DNA of 64,000 bases from Candidatus Nitrosopelagicus sp. (GTDB taxonomy: Archaea > Thermoproteota > Nitrososphaeria > Nitrososphaerales > Nitrosopumilaceae). The DNA is taken from NCBI GenBank assembly GCA_028345195.1, contig JAOMCX010000004.1, forward strand, positions 1-64,000, written 5' to 3'. Below the pieces are notes generated by a model that saw only the letters and a list, made by a program, of their open reading frames with translations, ran no database searches and was not told the DNA's origin. Below are positions 46,396 to 51,488 of the stretch, one piece after another; the first letter of the stretch is position 1, and each line of letters starts with the position of its first letter. A program made the position numbers and the translations under genes.

Positions 46396-46695
46396 ATGAA
46401 TGGACCTGCTCTTTTGAAGTGTATTTGTGATGAAACTAGATTTGAGATACTAGAATTATTACAAAAAGATAATGAATTATGTGTAAATGATTTTGTTGAG
46501 AAATTAGAAAAAGATCAACCTCTCATCTCGCATCACCTTAAAACTCTAAAAAATTGTGGGATTGTAAAATCTCGTAATGAGGGAAAAAAAGCAATGTATG
46601 CAATATCAAACCCACAACTATCTACTTTGATATCAAATGTTACAAAAACAAGCAAGAAAATCCCACATCTTTGTACAACTACCGAGTGTTGCTAG
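46396..46695 (+). CDS. arsR: ArsR family repressor
   Basis: 99 residues of winged-helix ArsR/SmtB type (FEILELLQ, LISHHLKTLKNCGIV). Cysteine 29 sits in ELCVND, the place of the classic metal site ELCVCDL where one of two Cys is missing, and the C-terminus ends LCTTTECC (Cys93, 98, 99), giving an alternative thiolate site. Binding of arsenite to these cysteines would release it from the operator at 46354-46389. It converges on the SbtB-like gene with a 4-base overlap. Confidence 0.88.
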   Translation: MNGPALLKCICDETRFEILELLQKDNELCVNDFVEKLEKDQPLISHHLKTLKNCGIVKSRNEGKKAMYAISNPQLSTLISNVTKTSKKIPHLCTTTECC

Positions 46696-46994
46696 AACTT
46701 TTCAGTTCTAACTACGCCAACATCACTAACGTACAAAATTATGGTAAAATCTGGAAATAATGTTCTAGATATATCCTCAATTACTGCTGATAATTTCTCT
46801 TCACGCATAATTACTTCAACTTTGACATTTTTTTCAGATTGTATGCCTTGACCTCTTAGTCCCTTTTCTCCATTACCATCAACTTCATAAGATGTGTATC
46901 CTGTAATTTCATGATTCTTCAAAATATCAATGACATTTTTTTGTGCCAATATCTCACAGGTGATTGTAAGTAATTTTACATCATAAAGTTTCAT
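46692..46994 (-). CDS. PII-like protein, SbtB type
   Basis: 100 residues with the ferredoxin-like fold of PII signalling proteins: KLLTITCEI start strand, GYTSYEVDGNGEKGLRGQG as T-loop region, and VEVIMREEKLSAVIEDISR. The GYTSYEV-GNGEKGLRG pattern resembles SbtB, which in cyanobacteria binds the bicarbonate transporter SbtA and senses cAMP/AMP. The gene overlaps the end of the SbtA-like gene by 4 bases (stop and start), so the pair is translationally coupled, as sbtAB are. Confidence 0.85.
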   Translation of the reverse strand: MKLYDVKLLTITCEILAQKNVIDILKNHEITGYTSYEVDGNGEKGLRGQGIQSEKNVKVEVIMREEKLSAVIEDISRTLFPDFTIILYVSDVGVVRTEKF

Positions 46995-48073
46995 ATGAAC
47001 ACCCTTGTAACGTAATTGAATAAGTCTATTGCTTCTTCACCATGTACCCACGTTGAAACGGTGAACATGATTGGCAGTAACACGATAATATTGTATGGGA
47101 ATGTAATTCCTAAAGCTGATGTAATGTATAGACTTGGATTTGCTTGAGGGATTGCATGACGTAAAACAGCTGGTGCTGCAATAAATGATGCACTAGCCAA
47201 AAGTAATCCAAACATAACTGCCCCGCCTAAACTTAATCCCAATGCTGTTGAAACTAGTACACCAATTATTCCATTAATTGTTGGCATTATTATTGCAAAT
47301 GAGGTAAGAAAAACTCCGACCTTTTTGATATCTTCTAATCTTTGTCCTGCAATTATTCCCATCTCAATCATAAAAATTACTATTGCTCCTGTAAACAGAT
47401 CATCAAAAACAATACTGATTGGTTCAAAACCTTCTTCTCCAATTATGTATCCAATTACAATACTTCCAAGTAAAATTACTATTGCTTTTCCTGTAATTGA
47501 TTCTTTTAACACCTGAGAAAGTTTTGTTTTAGTTTCTTTCATTCCCATGTCGATATCAGATACTTTGTCACCTGAAAATGACTGTTTTTTTGTACGAATT
47601 TGTTTTGATACTGCCATATTTGTCAAAAATATTGCCAGGATGAATGCTACCGGTTCTAACACTGCAAGAATTGCTGCCAAATATCCTTCTGATGTAACTC
47701 CTTGGTTTTTGAGAAATGACAATCCTACTGAGAATGTTACTGCTCCAACTGCACCGTATGTGGATGCTAATGCGTATGAATCAAAGATGTTGAATTTCCC
47801 TAATCTTCTTAGAATTTGATAATGGTTCAATGTGAATAATAATGACAGACCTATTGCAACTAGCATTGGTACTAACATCTCCTCAAAACCCGTCTTTCTC
47901 ATCTCTATTCCTCCATGAAGGCCGATAGCAGCTAGGAGGTATATCGGCAAAAACTCTGAAATTGCTTCAGGAATTTTTAAATCAGATTTTATTCGTGCTG
48001 CAATAATCCCAAACAAGAAGAATAGGATGATTGGAGTTAGCAGATTCGATTGGATTAATTCTAAAATATCCAT
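46991..48073 (-). CDS. sbtA: Sodium-dependent bicarbonate transporter, SbtA family
   Basis: 360 residues, about ten membrane helices, matching the DUF897/SbtA-type sodium-dependent bicarbonate permease. Segments such as IPEAISEFLPIYLLAAIGLHGG, LEPVAFILAIFLTN and FGLLLASASFIAAPAVLRHA near residue 300 agree with the two inverted repeats of the family. Likely imports HCO3- for the 3-hydroxypropionate/4-hydroxybutyrate cycle in an autotrophic ammonia oxidiser; function inferred from the family. Confidence 0.88.
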   Translation of the reverse strand: MDILELIQSNLLTPIILFFLFGIIAARIKSDLKIPEAISEFLPIYLLAAIGLHGGIEMRKTGFEEMLVPMLVAIGLSLLFTLNHYQILRRLGKFNIFDSYALASTYGAVGAVTFSVGLSFLKNQGVTSEGYLAAILAVLEPVAFILAIFLTNMAVSKQIRTKKQSFSGDKVSDIDMGMKETKTKLSQVLKESITGKAIVILLGSIVIGYIIGEEGFEPISIVFDDLFTGAIVIFMIEMGIIAGQRLEDIKKVGVFLTSFAIIMPTINGIIGVLVSTALGLSLGGAVMFGLLLASASFIAAPAVLRHAIPQANPSLYITSALGITFPYNIIVLLPIMFTVSTWVHGEEAIDLFNYVTRVFI

Positions 48074-48225: not shown

Positions 48226-48792
48226 ATGAAGAAGATTGAAGCTATAATCAACCGAAAAAATTACCCTGTTCTTCGTGAAAAATTAGATTCTTTGGGTATT
48301 GACATTATCGATAAACGAAATTTAGAAGACAGTAAATTCATCAGTGAATCAAAAGGTTCTCGTGCTGGTGGAACTGGTGTTAGATCCACAATGCTTGCAA
48401 AAATTGAACTGGCTATGCAAGACAAAGAAGCACGTGCGGTCCTAGAGATAATTTCTAAGAATTCAGGTCTTCCTCAATCTATCAAGAGTAAAATTTTTGT
48501 CTTTGATATGGAAGAAAGTATTGATCTATCCACTCTTGAAGGCCAGGCTGATGTAGAACCTGAAGAAAAACCTATTCCTGTTAGATTTACTACAAAACGT
48601 AATAGATTGGTTCCACTTCAAAAGCGAACCTTGTACAAATTAGAACAATACTATGATGAGCATAGTGAAATTTTAGAATCTGACTATAGAATTCGTTCAT
48701 TTAGCGATTTTGTTAATTATTGTATCTTGAAATATCTTCCAACCCTAGATAAGCAATTAAAGAATCCAACAATGCTTTACGAAGATATTTAG
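48226..48792 (+). CDS. PII-like protein fused to a C-terminal domain with possible RHH fold
   Basis: 188 residues. Residues 1-108 follow the PII pattern: KKIEAIINRKNYPVLREKL, GSRAGGTGVRSTMLAKIEL, and VLEIISKNSGL...IFVFDMEESID, so a ligand-sensing ferredoxin-like trimer is likely. Residues 118-172 (PVRFTTKRNRLVPLQKRTLY ... SFSDFVNYCILKYL) look like a beta strand plus two helices as in ribbon-helix-helix DNA-binding proteins. This fusion, if real, would be a PII sensor acting directly on DNA; the assignment of the second domain is my inference. It stands between sbtA and the glnK operon. Confidence 0.7.
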   Translation: MKKIEAIINRKNYPVLREKLDSLGIDIIDKRNLEDSKFISESKGSRAGGTGVRSTMLAKIELAMQDKEARAVLEIISKNSGLPQSIKSKIFVFDMEESIDLSTLEGQADVEPEEKPIPVRFTTKRNRLVPLQKRTLYKLEQYYDEHSEILESDYRIRSFSDFVNYCILKYLPTLDKQLKNPTMLYEDI

Positions 48793-48801
48793 TAATTTTT
48801 T

Positions 48802-48921
48802 TTAAATATAATCTGCAAACAAATACAGACCAAGTAAGGTCATACCTACTGCTGCAAACCCAAGTTTAGCAACAAAGATTTTTGATTTTCTAATTTGAGT
48901 TGTAATTTGTTGTAGTTTCAA
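48802..48921 (-). CDS. 39-residue single-helix membrane protein, glnK operon
   Basis: Starts at the TTG 48919-48921, overlapping the stop of the preceding 91-residue gene (TTGA). Product begins MKLQQITTQIRKSKIFVAKL and ends in a hydrophobic helix (FAAVGMTLLGLYLFADYI). Small, basic at the N-terminus and membrane-anchored at the C-terminus. It is the last gene of the glnK unit. Confidence 0.5.
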   Translation of the reverse strand: MKLQQITTQIRKSKIFVAKLGFAAVGMTLLGLYLFADYI

Positions 48922-49193
48922 TTTATTTTGATTAACCTTCGTTTTGTTCCACGTTCTGTGGTAATATATGCCATTTTTGGTTTGGATGACTCAATTTCTG
49001 AAGAATTTTCCAAATATTTTGTTACAGTTCCTCTTGCTGAGGTGATCACTGTTTTATTTCTTTTAGATAAAATGACTGATGCAGTTCTTCTTGATTGATA
49101 TTCTTTGAATGTCTGTCCTGCCCAGTTGTAGCTGATATCATCTTCAACTATCTTGTTTGAGGTTCCACGTTTTGTTATTAATCTAAGGCTCAT
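48918..49193 (-). CDS. Basic protein with three RGT repeats, glnK operon
   Basis: 91 residues from the ATG at 49193, which follows a GAGG ribosome-binding-like stretch and overlaps by no bases the preceding stop at 49199. The protein has three similar units: LITKRGTSNKIVE, VITSARGTVTKYLE and YITTERGTKRRLIK, i.e. I-T-x-x-R-G-T-x-x-K/R. Basic overall; no known family. Position within the glnK operon suggests a link to PII signalling. Confidence 0.6.
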   Translation of the reverse strand: MSLRLITKRGTSNKIVEDDISYNWAGQTFKEYQSRRTASVILSKRNKTVITSARGTVTKYLENSSEIESSKPKMAYITTERGTKRRLIKIN

Positions 49194-49198
49194 GTTCC

Positions 49199-49321
49199 TC
49201 AGTTCACCAACATTATCATAATTAGAGGTGGAATTACGACTATTACGCCTATAATTGTGCATTTTAGATAGTCTAATTTGGTTAATTTTGAGAATTTACT
49301 TCTATCAAGTGATAATTTCAT
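49199..49321 (-). CDS. 40-residue membrane mini-protein, glnK operon
   Basis: From the ATG at 49321, one base after the glnK stop: MKLSLDRSKFSKLTKLDYLK followed by one hydrophobic helix (TIIGVIVVIPPLIMIMLV). Basic N-terminal part, C-terminal membrane anchor. The immediate abutment to glnK implies joint translation. A membrane anchor for GlnK or a partner of Amt is a possibility, not shown. Confidence 0.6.
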   Translation of the reverse strand: MKLSLDRSKFSKLTKLDYLKCTIIGVIVVIPPLIMIMLVN

Positions 49322-49322
49322 T

Positions 49323-49652
49323 TTAGATAACTTCTTCCCCTTCGTTTCCGGATTTGATATCAATTGCCCGTAACATTTGTGAGATGAAAATTTTACCATT
49401 TCTTGCATTCTTCTTGATAATGTCTACTGTTTTTTCTTCTTTTGACTCTGGAACTACTACCATCATTCTATATTTGTCGCCAAAATGAGGTGTAAACACT
49501 TCCATACCTTTTGATGTGTGAATTTCAGGTTCAGTCTTTGCACCTCGACCTCTAACTTTGATAATTGTTAGTCCGCCAACGTCAATTTCTTTTAATCCTT
49601 CACTGATTTCCATCACGTCGTTTTCTGCAAGTATGACTTCAAGTTTTAACAT
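49323..49652 (-). CDS. glnK: PII nitrogen regulator, GlnK/GlnB family
   Basis: 109 residues. Core elements KLEVILAENDVMEISEGL, GLTIIKVRGRGAKTEPEIHT (start of T-loop), FGDKYRMMVVVPESK and GKIFISQMLRAIDIKSGNEG match the PII family. The uridylylated Tyr51 of enteric GlnB is not evident. It is divergently transcribed from amt, the usual glnK-amt pairing, and regulates ammonium uptake by binding Amt. It heads an operon with three small genes. Confidence 0.92.
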   Translation of the reverse strand: MLKLEVILAENDVMEISEGLKEIDVGGLTIIKVRGRGAKTEPEIHTSKGMEVFTPHFGDKYRMMVVVPESKEEKTVDIIKKNARNGKIFISQMLRAIDIKSGNEGEEVI

Positions 49653-49764: not shown

Positions 49765-51057
49765 ATGATAGATACCGGAGACACAGCATGGATGTTAATA
49801 GCAGGATGCTTGGTTCTGTTAATGATCCCGGCACTTGGATTATTCGAGTCGGGTCTTTTGCGAAAGAAAAATGTGGTTTCGATTTTCATGCAGATCTTCT
49901 TTGGAATGTCACTCCTAAGTGTAATGTGGTTTGTCTTCGGATTCAGTCTATCATTTGGTCCATCAACACAGGGTATTATTGGTAATCTTGATTGGACATT
50001 TTTGAAAGGAATTCCTTGGGATGCACCTCTTGAACAGTACGCGCCAACAATTCCTGGTGTATTATTTGTAAAGTTCCAATTGATGTTTGCATGTATCACA
50101 CCTTTACTACTAACTGGAACTATCGCTGAAAGAATGAAGTTCAGCTCTTTTATCATATTCATATCTGCATGGTCAATGCTCATCTATTACCCAATCGTTC
50201 ACATGGTTTGGGGCGGTGGATGGTTAGCAGAACTCGGTGTAGTTGACTTTGCCGGTGGTATCGTTATTCACACTACTGTAGGAATGGCAGCACTTGCAGC
50301 CGCTTTAGTACTTGGAAAAAGAAGAGGATTTGGCCCTGCCATAAACATCCCTCACAGCATTCCTCTTGCAGTATTAGGATCTTCATTATTATGGCTAGGA
50401 TGGTTCGGATTTAACGCAGGAAGCGCACTTGCATCTGGAGGTGTAGCAGGAAATACTGTAATTGTAACCCACTTGGCATCCTCTGTATCTGCTCTAATCT
50501 GGGCTGGATTGTCTTGGATGCGTACAGGAAAACCATCTATTGTTGCTACAATAAACGGCGCTATTGCCGGTCTTGCAGGAATTACCCCTGCATCAGGCTT
50601 TGTCAGTGTAGAACATGCATTTGTTCTTGCAATAGCAATTGGTATCTTGTCATACGGAGGAGTCGTACTAATTAGAGATAAATTAAAAATTGATGATTCA
50701 CTTGATGTAAGTTCCGTACACGGTATTGCAGGAATTGTAGGTGCACTTGGAATTGGAATATTTGCAAGCACTTTGATTAATCCTGCAGGTGTTGACGGCT
50801 TGCTCATTTCTGGAAGTCTGGATCAAATCTGGATACAGGGTGTTGGAATTGCAGTAGCTGCTGCTATGGGCTTTGGTGGAACATGGCTACTTTTACAGTT
50901 AATCAAACATCTTATCGGTATACGTGTCGAACCAGAACAAGAAGACGTTGGTTTGGATATCAGTGAGCATGCAGAACAAGCTTACTCCGATGAAGAAGAA
51001 TTCAAGTTAAGTCTTGATGAAAAATTAGAGTCGTCAAAAAAGAAATCTAACTCCTGA
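49765..51057 (+). CDS. amt: Ammonium transporter (Amt)
   Basis: 430 residues, eleven predicted helices and a cytoplasmic C-terminal tail with Glu/Asp-rich end. Family segments: DTAWMLIAGCLVLLMIPALG, FGFSLSFGPSTQGIIGNLDW, VWGGGWLAELGVVDFAGGIVIHTTVGMAALAA (near 150, containing the first pore His, DFAGGIVIH) and VHGIAGIVGALGIGIF near 315 (second pore His). The N-terminus lacks the longer signal-like leader of some archaeal Amts. Supplies ammonium to the ammonia oxidiser; partner of the divergent glnK. Confidence 0.96.
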   Translation: MIDTGDTAWMLIAGCLVLLMIPALGLFESGLLRKKNVVSIFMQIFFGMSLLSVMWFVFGFSLSFGPSTQGIIGNLDWTFLKGIPWDAPLEQYAPTIPGVLFVKFQLMFACITPLLLTGTIAERMKFSSFIIFISAWSMLIYYPIVHMVWGGGWLAELGVVDFAGGIVIHTTVGMAALAAALVLGKRRGFGPAINIPHSIPLAVLGSSLLWLGWFGFNAGSALASGGVAGNTVIVTHLASSVSALIWAGLSWMRTGKPSIVATINGAIAGLAGITPASGFVSVEHAFVLAIAIGILSYGGVVLIRDKLKIDDSLDVSSVHGIAGIVGALGIGIFASTLINPAGVDGLLISGSLDQIWIQGVGIAVAAAMGFGGTWLLLQLIKHLIGIRVEPEQEDVGLDISEHAEQAYSDEEEFKLSLDEKLESSKKKSNS

Positions 51058-51098: not shown

Positions 51099-51488
51099 AT
51101 GGGAATGGCTGAAGAAATAGTAACTACACAATCTTATGAAAAACTTTGTAGTGATGTACTTTATTCAAATGAAAGTGTTCGTTTTGTAGGTTTGGTAAAT
51201 AATAAATCTGATTTACTACACAGTGTTCAAAAAAAAGATTTAGATCCACTTTTGGATGATGATGAAATAAAAATTTCAATAAATTATTCATTAGAAAGAT
51301 GGAGAAAAGCACAAAATCTTTCATTTCGTTTAGGTCATGAAAAACTCACACTAACTGAATATGAACATGTAACTTTAATTTCAATTCCATATGATGGAAA
51401 ATTATTACTAATCAGTACCCAGCCAACTATACATTATCATGAAATGATACAAGCAATCATTTCTGTAATTCCTCCGTGGGAGAATTAA
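51099..51488 (+). CDS. DUF6659-like uncharacterised protein
   Basis: 129 residues; the second ATG at 51105 is an alternative start. The sequence has the profile of a roadblock/longin-like or DUF6659 protein found in Nitrososphaerota (SESVRFVGLVNNKSDLL-type N-terminal segment, EHVTLISIPYDGKLLLISTQPTI near residue 90). Not secreted, no membrane helix. It follows amt on the same strand and is followed by the FAD-dependent gene after 4 bases. Confidence 0.65.
   Translation: MGMAEEIVTTQSYEKLCSDVLYSNESVRFVGLVNNKSDLLHSVQKKDLDPLLDDDEIKISINYSLERWRKAQNLSFRLGHEKLTLTEYEHVTLISIPYDGKLLLISTQPTIHYHEMIQAIISVIPPWEN

Follow-up and report, generated by a model that had tools for sequence, protein, structure and literature searches.

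A conserved family of small basic proteins with three RGT motifs in Nitrosopumilaceae and its member in a presumed glnK operon: a putative nucleic-acid-binding protein

The window analysed here, a stretch of 64,000 nucleotides from Candidatus Nitrosopelagicus sp. (contig JAOMCX010000004.1, positions 1 to 64,000), carries four short minus-strand genes in the order glnK, TM1, triple-RGT and TM2 (Table 1), of which the first encodes a PII protein, TM1 and TM2 encode microproteins with no Pfam or NCBIfam match, and the third is named for the RGT motifs of its product. The triple-RGT reading frame starts with ATG at 49193, ends with TGA at 48920-48918 and is preceded on its 5' side by GAGG at 49200-49197 (noted by eye), while the TTG start of TM2 overlaps its stop codon. 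From their spacing, we infer that the four genes are read as one transcript; a promoter and terminator scan, which covered bacterial types only, found promoter-like sites to be no commoner than in shuffled sequences. The amt gene is followed directly by a gene for a DUF6659 protein (51099-51488, plus strand, E 7.8e-9). Behind an SbtA-like bicarbonate transporter gene (46692-48073, minus strand, PF05982, E 2.1e-105) comes a PII-like gene (PF00543, E 9.8e-16), which brings the number of PII-type genes within 3 kb to three. The extension of roughly 83 residues in the convergently encoded PII-domain protein has no Pfam match and, by eye, a ribbon-helix-helix-like look; look-alikes of this protein occur near the glnK operon in genomes G022, G025, G015 and G065. 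The triple-RGT protein itself gave no match to PF00543 and is not a PII protein.

Table 1. Positions of the glnK operon, its neighbours, the motifs of the triple-RGT protein and the extended paralogues (window coordinates unless a locus label is given)
Feature	Position	Strand	Evidence or remark
glnK, PII protein, 109 aa, first gene of the presumed operon	49323..49652	minus	PF00543, E 1.2e-15
TM1, microprotein, 40 aa, one hydrophobic stretch, between glnK and triple-RGT	49199..49321	minus	
Triple-RGT protein, 91 aa, pI 10.4, 19 K/R and 8 D/E	48918..49193	minus	ORF, homologues
RGT motif 1, residues 9-11	49161..49169	minus	
NWAG motif, residues 23-26, linker 1	49116..49127	minus	
RGT motif 2, residues 54-56	49026..49034	minus	
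RGT motif 3, residues 81-83	48945..48953	minus	
TM2, microprotein, 39 aa, one hydrophobic stretch	48802..48921	minus	
amt, ammonium transporter, divergent from the glnK operon	49765..51057	plus	PF00909, E 7.6e-112
PII-domain protein with C-terminal extension of ~83 aa, convergent with the operon	48226..48792	plus	PF00543, E 6.5e-6, residues 1-101
Extended paralogue, first copy	L137:8066-8530		tandem with short paralogue
Extended paralogue, second copy	L138:2588-3061		tandem with short paralogue
Extended paralogue, third copy	L139:4954-5427		tandem with short paralogue

The initial annotation had described the 91-residue product as three copies of one I-T-x-x-RGT unit, spaced by about 40 and about 30 residues. 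The three peptides that it quoted are present, with coordinates correct for the minus strand, and the pattern holds for copies 2 and 3, whereas copy 1 reads I-T-x-RGT (LITKRGT) and is one residue shorter. The distances between successive RGT motifs are in fact 45 and 27 residues in the window protein, and about 39 and 27-28 residues in most of the 31 members listed. As a single repeat, the three units agree in their core, (G)RGT, which is conserved across the family, but the I-T part varies among members. Three RGT motifs did not arise in any of 200,000 shuffled versions of the 91-residue sequence. The BLOSUM self-similarity summed over the three segments was matched in 0.015% of 20,000 shuffles, with fractions of 0.027, 0.0022 and 0.031 for the single segment pairs. 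Outside the GRGT core the units are weakly alike and their flanks add little: against a null of 1593 off-register pairs, from which the exact registers alone were excluded, 88, 30 and 17 pairs scored at least as high as the real flanks 1-2, 1-3 and 2-3, respectively. This weak similarity is what could be said for a chance repeat or a non-coding frame, a reading that is hardly credible and was rejected in view of the shuffles, the retention of RGT in homologues throughout the family and dN/dS values well under 1 (0.03-0.30 in five comparisons), indicating purifying selection. The ORF is a real gene, and that it belongs to a conserved family of real proteins is virtually certain.

Conservation of the repeats in homologues, on which the description of the protein as a periodic unit depended, was found throughout: all three RGT motifs are kept in each of 54 distinct whole open frames, drawn from 77 of 80 loci with homologues found by similarity rather than by motif. 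The three loci left out of this count (L007, L035, L047) lie at contig edges; L035 has three RGT, while L007 and L047 are truncated ahead of the first motif. Outside the count also stands the most diverged copy seen (L105:3799-4071, genome G216), which reads KGT, KGT, RGT. Across 31 members the columns R9-G10-T11, G26, R54-G55-T56 and G82-T83 are invariant, and the family plan consists of an RGT, about 39 residues containing W-x-G-x-x-F/Y-K-x-x-Q, a second RGT, about 27 residues, a third RGT and a basic tail. In a set of 61 rows, which was chosen by a pattern of three [RK]GT, so that motif invariance there is partly by construction, the W-x-G of linker 1 is near-fixed (G in 61 of 61, W in 58 of 61 and F in the rest); the window version, NWAGQTFKEYQ, fits W-x-G-x-x-(F/Y)-K-x-x-Q, and its NWAG probably heads an amphipathic helix. 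The window protein matches the family profile with E 2.2e-25, a value to be read with the fact that it is itself a row of the profile, and an independent search with the member from G031 reaches it with E 4.6e-5. The characterization as a basic protein of regular period also holds for the family, with near-fixed spacing and a pI of 9.5-12.0 across the 31 listed members. The members have low hydropathy, and in a charge-hydropathy plot 58 of 61 fall on the disordered side. Mean net charge per residue is +0.126 for copies linked to glnK (n=9) and +0.146 for the others (n=52); within the window genome, the operon copy has 0.121, compared with 0.256 for the copy linked to gatE. A single-sequence AlphaFold2 model of the triple-RGT protein has a pLDDT of 40 and a pTM of 0.25 and is uninformative.

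With the window protein as query, 19 of 61 genomes yielded relatives, and with a canonical member 43 of 61, all from the same archaeal family. With the 31-row profile, 109 of 137 Nitrosopumilaceae genomes (90% completeness bound) were positive, and wider draws gave 14 of 101 genomes in the order, 71 of 150 in the class and 26 of 200 in the phylum, every positive belonging to family f1; all these genome draws overlap. This family is presumably the Nitrosopumilaceae, since near-identical genes belong to named Candidatus Nitrosopelagicus records. Copies usually number one to four per genome, with five matches in one case, and the window genome, which is 85.5% complete, has two. The profile search with the same completeness bound found no triple-RGT gene in 28 of the 137 genomes: genus g29 has none in 18 listed genomes, and the negatives listed also include G064 and G451, which belong to other genera. 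Absence from g29 and from at least two genomes of other genera indicates that the gene is dispensable at the level of the family. No convincing match was obtained in Pfam, NCBIfam, PHROGs or the PDB, scattered single-member matches (E 0.006-0.12) being judged to be chance, and a literature search with limited coverage of most subscription journals yielded no paper recognized as dealing with the family, which is thus apparently undescribed and unnamed. Viral contig scans and tblastn against phages gave no relative, and a viral or mobile origin was rejected. The libraries of protein families that were searched have no entry for this gene, present in 109 of 137 genomes. Members of the Nitrosopumilaceae rank among the most numerous cells of the oceans and, to our knowledge, their chromosome organization and ammonium sensing are poorly known.

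Most of the family genes whose neighbours were read lie outside the glnK operon. The second copy of the window genome (G000:C1:1500) adjoins gatE and gatD, with dnaJ upstream, and copies between dnaJ and gatE, sometimes with an extra ORF in between, occur in G031, G025, G000, G028, G071 and G075; in G034 the copy adjoins gatE-like and DnaK/DnaJ-like genes, and in G036 gatE-like and gatD-like genes without dnaJ. Another group lies next to a transaldolase gene with CorA on the opposite side (G098, G083, G216, and G065 with one more ORF), and copies in G098, G083, G216, G252 and G071 adjoin a gene for a 115-residue protein without a Pfam match. These neighbours were named by Pfam or NCBIfam in the representatives G000/G025, G098 and G004, and by look-alike translations elsewhere. 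Three genomes that belong to the genus of the window (G004, G008, G024) have two family genes in tandem, one of which encodes an extended protein of 154-157 residues that has 47-50 K/R, no D/E at all, six RG(T/Y) motifs and repeated SGRGY/SGRGT units. In G004 (L137) a helicase gene lies at a distance of about 0.4 kb from the extended gene, and a gene for a family-B DNA polymerase at 2.5 kb; by eye, G024 has look-alike neighbours and G008 a look-alike helicase.

The arrangement at glnK was compared across genomes. With the window glnK as query (E 1e-20), 22 of 44 genomes matched, and 24 of 25 loci were counted, L113 being left out at a contig edge. Eight of the 24 have the order glnK-TM1-triple-RGT-TM2, the genes overlapping slightly or lying no more than 14 nt apart; five have glnK-TM1-TM2 without the triple-RGT gene, one has TM2 alone and ten have neither microprotein. 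Given the E value used and the length cut-off by which ORFs were picked, these counts may overlook tiny genes and more distant copies of glnK. The microproteins follow glnK in genera g1, g32 and g39, and TM2 alone in g42. TM1 and TM2 of loci with the triple-RGT gene are homologous to those of loci that lack it, as none of 5000 shuffles reached the observed score in any of 12 comparisons. All four genes show purifying selection in most pairs; the L114-L117 pair of TM1 is a weak case (dN/dS 0.62), and the L118/L120 pair of TM2 was left out of this set. The nine glnK-linked copies, all with glnK upstream and one of them (L001) identical to the window copy, form a single clade on a long stem (99/99 support, one change on the tree) in a phylogeny built from few columns and rooted at the midpoint. 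The existence of glnK-TM1-TM2 loci without the triple-RGT gene suggests a recruited paralogue, and recruitment into the operon is the probable course of events, rather than ancestral presence followed by loss. In a single event, one paralogue would have been inserted between the membrane microprotein genes TM1 and TM2 behind glnK, and the operon copy may then have spread vertically or horizontally. Lying inside the glnK operon, the paralogue would therefore be made together with the nitrogen sensor and may serve an ammonium-responsive variant of the family activity. In either form, with or without its RGT gene, the glnK-TM1-TM2 operon provides a tangible entry point to PII signalling in organisms that depend on ammonium for their living.

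Among the ligands named by the initial annotation (nucleic acid, nucleotide, or the acidic loops of PII), nothing points to nucleotide. The charge, the low hydropathy and the zero-acid paralogue suggest a polyanion as ligand, most likely nucleic acid, which is held the likeliest candidate because of the charge; a polycation with no D/E, such as the extended paralogue, is hard to explain without a polyanion ligand. For the family as a whole, whether nucleic acid is the main ligand is an even call, and for the window copy the same proposal is somewhat more doubtful. Column patterns suggest that each unit comprises a short strand, a GRGT turn and a K/R-rich strand. The turn could present one Arg and the neighbouring Lys/Arg to a phosphate backbone, and the three turns would hold nucleic acid, more likely DNA than RNA, at three points, in a manner resembling AT-hook or RGR-type minor-groove motifs. 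Several observations count against nucleic acid: the window copy has eight acidic residues and is less basic than the gatE-linked copy of its genome, the diverged copy L105 has KGT in place of RGT at two motifs, no known DNA- or RNA-binding family or other known domain was matched in Pfam, NCBIfam, PHROGs or the PDB, genus g29 lacks the gene, the units are weakly similar outside GRGT, the structure model is uninformative, and a basic charge would fit a membrane lipid, polyphosphate or an acidic protein partner as well. Histone is present in 37 of 38 genomes and Alba in 38 of 38, with or without triple-RGT; this co-occurrence gives no sign that triple-RGT replaces a chromatin protein, and a role as histone or Alba substitute, which would call for complementarity, was rejected.

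The main rival, which we consider less probable, makes the window protein an adaptor in GlnK-Amt regulation: together with TM1 and TM2 it would form a platform linked to the membrane and assist GlnK in docking to the divergently encoded transporter or in detaching from it, its basic RGT turns touching acidic T-loops or a lipid surface. Its co-operonic position with glnK, tightly packed in eight of 24 loci, lends PII binding a contextual argument, amt is divergent in the window and, by look-alike translations, in G022, G025, G015 and G065, and sP36 (PMC10714827) supplies the precedent of a functionally comparable small archaeal protein reported to be tied to GlnK/Amt. However, the operon lacks the triple-RGT gene in five of the 24 loci, copies without a PII link retain the three RGT just as well, and glnK stands beside the family gene in one of 22 stretches read (L107), the others lying near gatE/gatD, transaldolase/CorA or other genes; PII binding is therefore unlikely as a family-wide function. 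Binding of the family to the ribosome or to structured RNA, as an assembly or stasis factor, with the window copy placed under nitrogen control, is improbable. The small size, basic character and low hydropathy of the members, as well as one widespread copy adjoining gatE/gatD and dnaK/dnaJ, would suit such a factor, but the neighbourhoods read, as judged by eye, comprise no ribosomal operons, and the g29 gap and the missing RNA-binding match weigh on this reading too. Equally improbable is a family that binds some other polyanion, such as acidic lipid head groups, polyphosphate or a cell-surface polymer, in place of nucleic acid or PII: charge by itself would allow it and the hydrophobic microproteins of the operon would be apt neighbours, but no signal peptide was noticed by eye, and the zero-acid paralogue of G004 lies near helicase and DNA polymerase genes. 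The best explanation, held tentatively and at a little under an even call, remains that the window protein is a diverged glnK-operon member of a basic (G)RGT family that putatively holds nucleic acid at three points. A bolder version is unlikely, namely that the GRGT turn is a new archaeal nucleic-acid module of which one copy was captured by the GlnK operon, in company with two membrane microproteins. If true, a nitrogen-sensing switch would join PII and the membrane to the nucleoid or RNA, and a new module, with three GRGT turns, or six with RGY in the extended form, would be widespread in the most abundant marine ammonia oxidizers.

Known systems offer partial parallels. The AT-hook and the prokaryotic RGR/QGR motifs, of HMGA, H-NS and Lsr2, are minor-groove motifs and share with triple-RGT a short Gly-Arg core, basic flanks and several copies per small protein. 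In contrast, the core here is RGT rather than RGRP or RGR, the spacing is fixed, and a conserved W-x-G helix, as predicted from the sequence, would stand between copies 1 and 2. R-G-R-P is absent from the window protein and no Pfam AT-hook match was found in 31 members at E 0.1; a GRP does occur in linker 2 of some relatives, unlike the window protein. Histones and Alba are likewise small, basic and archaeal, but the family co-occurs with both, and its members have no Pfam match to the histone fold or the Alba domain. Histone is reported to make up less than 0.06% of the Nitrosopumilus maritimus proteome (PMC7613761). Another parallel is sP36 of Methanosarcina mazei, a protein of 61 residues that is reported to bind AmtB1 and GlnK1, to mediate their interaction and to occur in Methanosarcinia, Halobacteria and some bacteria (PMC10714827). 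Both are small archaeal proteins with a tie to GlnK/Amt, which for triple-RGT is one of gene order; a glnK link is rare among the triple-RGT copies whose surroundings were read. The context differs in the brz-brb operon of Halobacterium, which is reported (PMC3184054) to resemble the present operon in that a small basic protein is co-transcribed with a regulator.
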